Shown here in pieces: positions 2,081 to 9,237 of a stretch of 10,536 nucleotides of DNA (position 1 is its first letter; each line of letters begins with the position of its first letter). This DNA is from Acidobacteriota bacterium (GTDB taxonomy: Bacteria; Acidobacteriota; UBA6911). The notes under the pieces are model-generated. The model did not search any database. It had not been told where the DNA came from and saw only the letters and a list, made by a program, of their open reading frames with translations. The DNA lies in assembly GCA_017860075.1 (NCBI GenBank), contig JAFNAH010000043.1, positions 1 through 10,536 on the forward strand, written 5' to 3'. The position numbers were made by a program, and so were the translations under genes.

Positions 2081-3075
2081 ATGGATATCGCACTTTTCCC
2101 GATGGCGGATTACTGGTGGTTCTACCTGACCTTTACCCTGTTCGTCCTGCTGATGCTGGCGCTCGATCTGGGTGTGTTCCACCGGAAGGCGCACGTAGTC
2201 TCCTTCCGGGAGGCGACCACGTGGAGCGTGGTCTGGATCTCGCTCGCGCTGGCATTCAACTATTTCCTCTACCGGTACGCTCTCTGGAAGTTTCCCCGGG
2301 ATCCCCGGCTGATCGGTGTCTCAGGCTTCGAACCCGAGGCGGCGGCGCAGCAGATCGGGCTCGAGTTCCTCACGGGTTACCTGGTCGAGAAGTCGCTGTC
2401 GGTCGACAACATTTTTATATTTGTCCTGGTCTTCAGCTATTTCGCCATTCCTCAGAAGTACCAGCACCGGGTGCTGTTCTTCGGCATCCTGGGCGCGCTG
2501 CTTTTCCGGTCGGTCTCGGCGTTTTCCTGATCGCCACGGGGATCAAGATGCTGTTCGCACCGGAGAGAGGGCTCGAACCCGACAAGAATCCCCTGATCCG
2601 GCTTTTCCGGCGCTTCGTGCCGGTGGCCCCCGAACTCGACGGCCAGAGGTTCTTCACACGAGTGGGCGGAGTAGTCCACGCAACCCCTCTGTTCATCGCC
2701 CTGCTCTTCGTGGAGGCCACCGATATCATCTTCGCCGTGGACTCAGTGCCTGCGATATTCGCGCTGACGCGCGAGCCTCTGATCGTATTCACTTCGAACG
2801 TGTTCGCGATCCTGGGGCTGCGGGCGCTTTATTTCATGCTGGCCGGCGCAATCCACAAGTTCCACATGCTGAAGTACGGGCTCGCACTGGTGCTGATCTT
2901 CGTGGGGCTGAAGATGGCGTGGCTGAACGAAGCGTTCGGCGGGAAGTTCCCGGTCGGATGGTCCTTGGGAATCATCGGCGGACTGATCGCTGCGAGCGTC
3001 GCTCTCTCGCTGCTGTTCCCCAAGCCTCCGGCGGCATCACAGGCCGGCGCATCCGGGGTCGATGCGGGCGGGTGA
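2081..3075 (+). pseudogene. terC: TerC/Alx-family integral membrane protein, frame broken by an apparent deletion of about 55 bp
   Basis: The first frame (2081-2530, 149 residues) carries the TerC N-terminal half: membrane helices, LALDLGVFHRK (27-36) and the signature EKSLSVDNIFIFVLVFSYF (103-121). It then reads RSVSAFS and a stop at 2528-2530. The second half continues one frame back from about 2515 (LGVFLIATGIKMLFAPE) to the stop at 3075, with ATPLFIALLFVEATDIIFAVDSVP and SNVFAILGLRALYF. Against remembered E. coli Alx, FRSV matches LRTI and LGVFLIATGIKM matches FGAFLLFTGVKM. The roughly 18 Alx residues between them, most of one membrane helix, are absent. Loss of 54+1 nt explains both the gap and the frame change. 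TerC proteins are linked to Mn2+ efflux, tellurite resistance, alkaline response and metalation of secreted enzymes. The start is ATG 2081 with GAGGT at 2072-2076. A real pseudogene or an assembly/sequencing error are both possible; the second half shows no further decay. Confidence 0.85.
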
Positions 3076-3142: not shown

Positions 3143-3167
3143 GGGTCCGGTCTGACAGACCGGACCC
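3143..3167. repeat. Palindrome P2, perfect 12-bp-arm inverted repeat (REP-like)
   Basis: GGGTCCGGTCTG (3143-3154), a single central A, then CAGACCGGACCC (3156-3167): 12 perfectly complementary base pairs around one base (in practice a slightly larger loop). The inner 21 nt recur exactly, in reverse complement, at 8621-8641. Location between convergent terC and the ATP-grasp gene, recurrence in another intergenic gap and absence from genes fit a REP-like dispersed palindrome. It could also block transcription from both sides or protect mRNA ends. Confidence 0.85.
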
Positions 3168-8614: not shown

Positions 8615-8620
8615 AAGTAG

Positions 8621-8641
8621 GTCCGGTCTGTCAGACCGGAC
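8621..8641. repeat. Palindrome P4 (REP-like), inverted copy of the P2 core
   Basis: GTCCGGTCTG (8621-8630), central T, CAGACCGGAC (8632-8641): a perfect 10-bp inverted repeat starting 7 nt after the stop of the unknown gene. Its reverse complement is identical to the inner 21 nt of P2 at 3145-3165, 5.5 kb away, so the two are copies of one element in opposite orientation. It also forms the left border of the repeat-flanked cassette ending near 9186. Confidence 0.85.
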
Positions 8642-8691
8642 TCGAAGTCTCTACATTTCGAACGCCTCGGGTAGCACTACACCTGGTCGCG

Positions 8692-8733
8692 GGATCGGGA
8701 TCGCTATCGGGGTCGAAATCGGATCCGGTGTCG
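8692..8733 (+). repeat. Left flank of the four-helix-bundle cassette: degenerate 6-nt-period repeat (TCGNNN)
   Basis: The triplet TCG recurs at exactly 6-nt steps: 8695, 8701, 8707, 8713, 8719 and 8731, with CCG at the one missing position, 8725. The units read like GGATCG, GGATCG, CTATCG, GGGTCG, AAATCG, GATCCG, GTGTCG. It ends 10 nt before the start codon of the gene at 8744. The complementary motif with the same period follows that gene at 9129-9167, in inverted orientation. Confidence 0.7.
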
Positions 8734-8743
8734 AAGAAGACGT

Positions 8744-9097
8744 ATGACCTTTGGGCACGGGCAGTTGGATGTCTACCGAGCCTCCATTGAGTATGCAGGC
8801 TGGGCCTTTCGGCTATGTGAACGGCTGACGGCACATCGAAACGCCAAAGATCAGCTTCTTCGGGCTTCACAAGCCGTTCCTTTAAACATCGCTGAAGGGA
8901 ATGGCAAGGTTACATCGGCTGAGCGGAGACGCTTCTTCGAGATCGCAAGCGGATCGGCACTTGAATGCGGAGCCGTGCAGGATGTACTGGAAGTGTGCGG
9001 GGCTCTTTCGCCGGCAGAGAGCGCTGATGCGAAGAGACTCCTTGACCGAATCGTTGCCATGCTGACAAGGCTCGGGCAACGCGGCTATTCGCTTTGA
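8744..9097 (+). CDS. Four-helix-bundle protein (S23 / 23S rRNA intervening-sequence protein family)
   Basis: This 117-residue protein belongs to the family described as S23, IVP or TIGR02436, which is structurally related to the Avd accessory proteins of diversity-generating retroelements. The family is a small all-helical bundle, and several members are encoded within intervening sequences of 23S rRNA genes; no enzymatic activity is established. Visible here: an N-terminal LDVYRASIEYAGWAF helix (8-22), the family signature QLLRASQAVPLNIAEGNGK (37-55), a third helix ERRRFFEIASGSALECGAVQ (60-79) and a C-terminal helix AKRLLDRIVAMLTRL (95-109). Length and motif order are standard and the gene looks intact. 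The start is ATG 8744, with only a weak purine-rich GAAGAAGA (8733-8740) before it. No rRNA sequence surrounds it, so this is a free-standing copy. It is tightly bracketed by inverted 6-nt-period repeats and palindrome pieces, as if the whole 8.62-9.19 kb unit moves or is maintained together. Confidence 0.85.
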   Translation: MTFGHGQLDVYRASIEYAGWAFRLCERLTAHRNAKDQLLRASQAVPLNIAEGNGKVTSAERRRFFEIASGSALECGAVQDVLEVCGALSPAESADAKRLLDRIVAMLTRLGQRGYSL

Positions 9098-9128
9098 GAG
9101 CATCGAGTTTGTTCGGGAGTGACCAAAC

Positions 9129-9170
9129 CGAAAACGATTGCGACCCCGATGCCGATTCCGACAGCGATCG
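9129..9170 (-). repeat. Right flank of the four-helix-bundle cassette: degenerate 6-nt-period repeat (CGANNN), inverted to the left flank
   Basis: CGA recurs at 9129, 9135, 9141, 9147, 9153, 9159 and 9165, seven consecutive 6-nt steps without a miss, starting 32 nt after the gene's stop. CGA is the complement of the TCG in the left flank, so the two arrays are inverted relative to each other. The reverse complement of this array (GATCGCTGTCGGAATCGG) aligns with the left flank (GATCGCTATCGGGGTCGA), differing at only a few positions. A piece of the palindrome arm, GGTCTGACA, follows at 9178-9186. Confidence 0.7.
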
Positions 9171-9237
9171 CCCTACAGGTCTGACAAGCTCATGCCGGCG
9201 AGCCCGCCAATCCTGATTCGCCTGGCAACACTGCCCG

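Follow-up and report, generated by a model that had tools for sequence, protein, structure and literature searches.

A small IVP gene between inverted, six-nucleotide-phased TCG arrays: a candidate mobile mini-cassette with gene-less hairpin relatives

Introduction

ERIC sequences (IRU) are imperfect palindromes of about 125 bp that occur in many intergenic copies without a transposase. REPINs, as presented in the excerpted part of PMC3116915, are inverted doublets with a spacer that are predicted to form hairpins, are dispersed extragenically and are tied to a gene. In Coxiella, the excerpt of PMC4990558 describes an intervening sequence (IVS) in which an S23 ORF lies in the loop of terminal inverted repeats that form a nearly perfect stem of 28 bp. 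This IVS, which is excised by RNase III and is called a selfish element, has short tandem heptamers before the start codon, and the same excerpt introduces the S23/IVP proteins as being without known function (PMC4990558). The Avd protein of diversity-generating retroelements (DGR) resembles PF05635 (excerpt of PMC10053308), and the TAACTGA heptamer arrays of the Beggiatoaceae are located just upstream of start codons and have a patchy, possibly horizontal distribution (excerpt of PMC4679880). IVP genes in phased arrays were not found described in titles and abstract beginnings of open-licence PMC articles, among the matches listed.

Here we analyze an IVP/S23 gene that lies between two inverted arrays of a trimer repeated every 6 nt in a 10,536-nt stretch of DNA from an Acidobacteriota bacterium. 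The whole stretch is referred to as the window, and the draft genome from which it comes as the host genome (G000).

Results

An earlier note, made from the letters of the window alone, had described TCG recurring every 6 nt on the left with one miss and CGA on the right with none, flanks that are mutually inverted with few mismatches, and a single 117-residue S23/IVP-type gene between the arrays. Each of these observations was confirmed (Table 1). The TCG units start at positions 8695, 8701, 8707, 8713, 8719, and 8731, with a miss at 8725 (CCG), and a repeat search of the window aligned the arms at 8695-8729 and 9127-9161 over 35 nt with 80% complementarity. Of 300 sequences generated from the window with a first-order Markov model, none (0/300) had a TCG or CGA run scoring at least 5. 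The stop codon of the gene lies 5' of the right array, which is in another frame, and the protein has no acidic tail. On the minus strand, the right arm matches a gene-less hairpin of the same genome (G000:C58:1513-1545) at 97% over 33 nt.

Table 1. Coordinates of the cassette features in the window.
Feature	Position	Strand	Remarks
Left arm, TCGNNN array	8695..8733	+	6/7 units match; predicted to pair with the right arm in the RNA
IVP/S23 gene, intact, 117 aa	8744..9097	+	PF05635 9e-19; TIGR02436 1.2e-17
Spacer, stop codon to right arm	9098..9128	+	The ORF of most relatives that have a downstream array continues here as an (Asp-X)n tail
Right arm, CGANNN array	9129..9167	-	7/7 units; the minus strand is a TCGNNN array

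The window ORF scored 68.1 bits against PF05635 and 64.1 bits against TIGR02436, for which the curated cut-offs are 33.8 and 24 bits, respectively, and it is the single PF05635 match in the host genome. The window protein was combined with three relatives in a profile, which matched a single sequence of solved structure, XCC0516 (2gsc), at 4.2e-14. The protein is 79% identical to that of locus L189 (pS 0.79 and pN 0.11 for this pair). Comparison of the window gene with seven relatives gave pS values of 0.76-0.91 and pN values of 0.11-0.16, and because pN is far below pS the IVP domain is under purifying selection. Searches with PADLOC and PHROGs gave no match, plasmid and phage sequences contained no match, and of 71 stretches of viral contigs that fit a peptide pattern none encoded a relative (0/71). 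Rfam gave no family at gathering score in the window, where there is no rRNA, and no match on ten related loci. Elsewhere in the window (2081-3075), a TerC-like membrane protein, named by reading, appears to be split near 2520 into two ORFs in different frames, by a frameshift or an assembly error.

The earlier note had also placed outer arms around the unit. The two 9-nt sequences, TGTCAGACC at 8629-8637 and GGTCTGACA at 9178-9186, are present as it had written them, but the left one lies within a complete palindrome. This palindrome, P4 (GGTCCGGTCTGNCAGACCGGAC, at 3144-3166 and 8620-8642 of the window), belongs to a separate REP-like family. P4 was rejected as an element end, as it is an independent repeat family with 36 genome sites at up to 2 mismatches. 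The only contigs with array loci that also hold P4 are C58, C295 (the window), and C516, and in C58 and C516 P4 lies at least 0.7 kb from the array. Neither P4 nor the half arm at 9178-9186 gave any sign of belonging to the cassette.

To relatives of the gene, collected with four seeds that were all array-flanked, we applied a scan of the flanks for all 64 trimers at period 6 within 300 bp, with segments 1-2.3 kb away as controls. The best 80 of 389 relatives from the genome collection were taken; 2 pairs of loci appear to be duplicates (L226 = L117 and L196 = L063), and 6/80 genes contain internal stops. Arrays were found upstream in 74 of these 80 relatives, downstream in 68, on both sides in 64, and with the same trimer inverted in 58, and in 15/408 control segments. 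Considering only the nearest TCG/CGA arrays of the 80, TCG was upstream and CGA downstream in 45, the reverse was found in 6, arrays were one-sided or of the same sense in 25, and there were none in 4.

More distant members of the family differ in this respect. Phased runs scoring at least 5 were absent from all 30 top PF05635 loci in relatives (L002-L031). We then scored 35 IVP genes from the relatives of the host and the window, which passed filters from 53 loci, with the profile of the relatives. Arrays accompanied 7/7 genes with at least 97 bits (TCG/CGA in 4, GAC/GTC in 2 that are near-identical, and ACG/CGT in 1), a group that includes the window and 2 loci also used in the profile. In 6 of the 7 the arrays reached the threshold on both sides, and the seventh (L063) has a three-unit downstream array. 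Among the remaining 28 genes, all below 60 bits, paired arrays were found in 0/28, and one gene has a weak upstream CCG run. The expectation that other genes of the family would be flanked in the same way thus holds for most of the subclade examined and, with respect to paired arrays, fails for the 28/28 more distant genes, so that the flanks are the mark of a subclade.

In a tree of 45/80 relatives and the 35 other IVP genes, array-flanked genes fall on one side of a branch with 100/100 support and TCG-type genes on one side of a branch with 97/96 support; the alignment has few columns for its rows, and the long branches of which the tree warns include those of ACG-type and GAC-type genes. 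Phyla are mixed among the array-flanked genes, and the tree as a whole carries twelve phylum names, most of the records being metagenome bins. Among the genes examined, the arrays are restricted to one IVP subclade. The motif, TCG, GAC, or ACG, is alike on both sides of a gene, and the two branches make it probable that the trimer underwent two or more changes, every one of them affecting both arms.

The arrays are not confined to the gene. Six TCGNNN units in a row gave 55+43 exact matches in the 3.06-Mb draft host genome, and the reversed pattern gave 0+0. Of 46 further array loci in this genome, 36 are TCG-to-CGA arm pairs with loops of 5-66 nt, which leave no room for a gene, and the rest have one recognizable arm or overlapping arms. 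The arrays are, hence, the arms of dispersed hairpins. The earlier note had counted a wide occurrence of arrays without the gene against the cassette; such arrays are common, and they show that gene-less hairpins exist. A second hairpin family of the host has GACNNN and GTCNNN arms, and its loops are alike by eye. Several hairpins (G000 L049, L084, L109, L114, and others) form a recently amplified subfamily with extended ends around CAGTAACTCATGCGC and TTCTATTTTCGGAACAG and are partly in tandem.

Chance or low-complexity sequence beside an ordinary gene has practically no probability left as an explanation of these arrays. Nothing was found in its favor, and it is refuted by their absence from the 300 Markov copies, by the 55+43 matches in the host genome vs 0+0 for the reversed pattern, and by the presence of arrays on both sides of 64/80 relatives vs 15/408 controls.

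Array hits were obtained in every genome of the relatives searched (39 genomes, for which 40/80 loci were taken), with 2 to 1339 hits per genome; the reversed control was nonzero in 12 of the 39 genomes and equaled or neared the count in 2 of them (G108 and G114). In Desulfatitalea alkaliphila (G135), 18/19 array sites lack an IVP gene and one has it, and the resident hairpins use another arm vocabulary than the cassette. Several of these resident hairpins (L316, L324, L325, L329, and L331) have common outer ends like GCGGTTATGCACAAAGCCCAAG, located outside the arrays. In the single-contig genome G026, all 7 pattern hits are at the cassette. One or more array hits were present in 41 of 100 whole genomes, a set made up of the host and genomes searched as its relatives. 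Within the family of the host, the window-type gene is present in 3/6 array-rich genomes and in 0/9 array-poor ones. The array-rich drafts G006, G007, and G013 have no detected window-type gene, with one weak match at 1e-4 in G013, and in G065 and G077, which are also array-rich, the distant IVP genes are without arrays. In a genome of the host's own genus (G001), ten PF05635 genes were found alongside only a single array hit, and the window protein has no match there.

We next consider what is constrained in the arms. The flanks had a median inverted-repeat score of 22.4; exchanging one flank for that of another locus gave 12.9, and the direct orientation gave 11.6. The score was at least 25 in 30/79 loci vs 5 and 11, respectively, that of L210 being an artefact of N runs. 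Shuffling the order of the units within one arm had no significant cost in 51 cassettes (27/51 beat the shuffles; mean z -0.20, s.e. 0.16) and a weak effect in the G000 hairpins (19/27, and 8/8 in one recent subfamily). Because this shuffling costs nothing significant, the constraint is on phase and motif. Arms swapped among the G000 hairpins paired better than the true ones (the energy did not exceed that of the true pairs in 4997/5000 permutations, n=27; 4975/5000 with all 35 hairpins, and 4919/5000 with the elements oriented). Swaps among the 51 cassettes of different genomes resulted in worse pairing (0/5000); the arms of a cassette pair better than arms across genomes because each cassette shares a unit vocabulary. 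Covariation between the arms found no support in the swap and unit-order shuffle tests, and the compensatory changes between left and right arrays that the earlier note had looked to were absent as far as tested. Its proposal of selection on spacing or pairing therefore survives for phase and motif and not for precise pairing: phase and motif are conserved, and ordered arm pairing is not.

These results bear on a reading in which the cassette acts at the RNA level like a 23S rRNA intervening sequence, its arms pairing, RNase III cutting the stem, and the coding RNA being released. The plan matches that of the Coxiella IVS, where the excerpted report places the S23 ORF in the loop of a stem (PMC4990558). 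As the earlier note had supposed, the window RNA is predicted to fold with the arms paired and the gene in the loop (z -3.0, with 1/100 shuffles equally good), and the hairpins folded (six TCG-type and one GAC-type of the host, and one of G135) gave z values of -2.7 to -7.9 vs shuffles in 8/8 cases. However, there is no rRNA in the window, there is no ordered arm pairing beyond the shared units, and the predicted stems are interrupted every few bases, in contrast to the nearly perfect 28-bp stem given for Coxiella in the excerpt. We consider this reading unlikely.

In many relatives the downstream array is also part of the coding sequence. It lies inside the IVP ORF in 49/65 loci having one (the window is not among these 65), always in the frame that encodes Asp-X or Glu-X (49/49), and in the other 16/65 translation ends before the array is reached. 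A tail of at least 4 alternating acidic residues is present in 53/80 relatives, and the median net charge is +3 for the domain and -7 for the tails. X codons end in C in 252/284 cases in the tails and in 2139/6298 (34%) in the domains. Because this is far above the domain rate, there is a constraint on the tail at the DNA level too, and selection on the protein alone is insufficient to explain the array. At the other side of the gene, the end of the upstream array is at a median of 13 nt from the gene start (range 4-173).

One could propose from the tail that the downstream array is simply a selected (Asp-X)n extension and the upstream array its inverted duplicate, and the 53/80 relatives with alternating acidic residues and the frame constant in 49/49 fit this proposal. 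It is already weakened by the C-ending X codons (252/284, against 34% in the domain). Moreover, the gene-less hairpins and the upstream arrays lie outside the protein, and the window and 16/65 relatives with a downstream array stop before it, which makes this explanation very improbable.

Several pairs of loci indicate that gene and arrays travel together. The alignment of L250 (Verrucomicrobia) with L254 (Deltaproteobacteria) extends from -42 to +94 relative to the gene and no further, with 91.8% DNA identity; this package is of approximately 480 bp and the flanks beyond it are unrelated. Similarly, L216 and L230 have 87% DNA identity from -36 to +68. No recurrent neighbor gene was found, the biggest cluster of neighboring ORFs (at least 100 aa) spanning 4/80 loci, and no linked transposase was found at the cassettes. 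The cassette of Thiosymbion (L235) has an ORF read as folP on one side and glmM, named by its E. coli match, on the other; in the E. coli record these two genes overlap by 8 bp. What spreads horizontally is an array-gene-array module, accompanied by gene-less hairpins of like make.

At L069 (1325-2020, G012:C15), a hairpin, an IVP gene, a hairpin, and an IVP 3' fragment with ACG/CGT arms are in tandem, and in two G012 loci a gene or fragment lies between two hairpins. At approximately 3440-3560 of L232, the IVP cassette directly adjoins sequence that, as read, resembles the C-terminal end of integron-type integrases, and L240, of the same genome, has a similar neighbor.

The GAC-type siblings have both terminal repeats and direct repeats. 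One of these siblings is present in G004 in several similar copies, some truncated. Six insertions of elements with ends ATARGCGYTAACTTAA are bordered by 12-13-bp direct repeats, most of which are palindromes of the form GGG-N6-CCC. Four of these insertions lie on single contigs and two were read from facing contig ends; the repeats are exact in three and have 1-2 differences in the other three. Three of the six are the G004 element with a gene or broken gene, two are in G000 with arms and no gene seen, and in the sixth (L170) neither arrays nor gene were seen. The L170 element (1502-2122, G013:C171) is of 620 bp and has GAC-type terminal repeats. At the locus orthologous to G004:C48, where the gene copy is broken by an internal deletion, 83 nt separate the matching blocks in G006 and 744 in G004, in intergenic sequence otherwise too divergent for a base-precise junction. 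Among the displayed loci of 22 pattern matches in 4 genomes, no autonomous IS was found behind the GAC-type terminal repeats.

Outer terminal repeats are not general in TCG-type cassettes, for which an inverted-repeat score of at least 10 was obtained in 3/45 vs 1.1% of swapped pairs, and neither the window copy nor the TCG-type cassettes as a group gave evidence of a target duplication. Comparison with 40 relatives gave no empty site for the window, its two flanks matching at separate places and never together; of the empty sites sought after the earlier note, one orthologous element-free locus was thus obtained, for a GAC-type sibling. The earlier idea of a possible mobile cassette is nonetheless supported by the array-gene-array package in many phyla, and by the direct repeats and this one element-free site in the GAC-type siblings.

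The same data can be read with the hairpins as residents of REP/ERIC type, into which IVP genes of the subclade insert or recombine as targets, the protein having no dealings with the motif. This agrees with the excess of gene-less hairpins over the cassette (36 pairs vs 1 in the host, and 18/19 array sites in G135), with the array-rich genomes in which no window-type gene was detected, and with the resemblance of the window right arm to resident hairpins. Against it, all 7 pattern hits of the single-contig genome G026 are at the cassette, a cassette has passed from one phylum to another with its arms included, downstream arms that overlap the gene are in one frame with it in every case (49/49), and distant IVP genes in the array-rich G065 and G077 are without arrays. 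We regard resident hairpins as a serious alternative with a modest chance of being correct.

Discussion

We propose, with a probability of roughly 55%, that window positions 8695-9167 are a copy of a mobile mini-cassette with inverted 6-nt-phased TCG arrays, and that the protein recognizes the arrays. The IVP protein, a four-helix bundle that is slightly basic and for whose family a pentameric crystal structure exists, would recognize the phased motif on folded RNA or on DNA, possibly on its own mRNA. With the upstream array ending so close to the gene (median 13 nt), the protein could also regulate its own gene by binding there. The acidic tail written by the downstream arm may tune the nucleic-acid binding of the protein, and the window copy is a form with the tail absent and the domain intact. 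Both the cassette and its gene-less relatives would be moved by enzymes supplied in trans. The proposal is weakened by the array-rich G006, G007, and G013, in which no window-type gene was detected, by G135, where the units of the cassette differ from those of the resident hairpins, by the failure to find target duplications, terminal repeats, or an empty site for the window copy or, as a general feature, for TCG-type cassettes, by the lack of a linked transposase, and by the choice of array-flanked seeds for collecting the relatives.

In a broader view, which we put forward tentatively, these cassettes could be a class of minimal mobile elements distributed over about twelve phyla. In this class a four-helix-bundle protein with no recognized catalytic function would serve phased-trimer hairpins, with joint shifts of the trimer on both arms, an acidic tail written by an arm, and gene-less swarms carried in trans, and the rRNA IVS would be a specialized branch. 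A phased motif that accompanies a gene across phyla, and whose sequence differs jointly on the two sides, is a direct candidate for the target of the IVP protein. The rRNA intervening sequences, the free-standing IVP genes of the subclade, and many unexplained intergenic hairpins become candidates for a common origin. A single small protein and a short array would suffice to address the question in vitro.

Among known systems, the 23S rRNA IVS of Coxiella and Leptospira, as excerpted, resembles the cassette in having an S23-type ORF in the loop between pairing terminal inverted repeats, but the cassette lies outside rRNA, its arms are 6-nt-phased, gene-less hairpins are dispersed, and the array encodes an acidic tail in most relatives. 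Avd and its DGR differ, since no reverse transcriptase was found in the eight window proteins scanned and no neighbor is recurrent in the 80 relatives. The TAACTGA arrays are likewise short, phased, and just before start codons in the excerpted report; they are, however, direct heptamers and not inverted 6-nt repeats, and that excerpt describes no attached IVP gene. MITE and ERIC elements differ from the phased arrays and the gene-bearing form seen here, where terminal repeats and 12-13-bp direct repeats are found only in the GAC-type siblings. The REPIN/RAYT system shares with this locus the dispersed inverted hairpin doublets, of which there are 36 arm pairs in G000; it differs in that the gene here encodes a four-helix bundle (PF05635) instead of a Y1 tyrosine transposase, and in that the arms are phased trimers with variable spacers.
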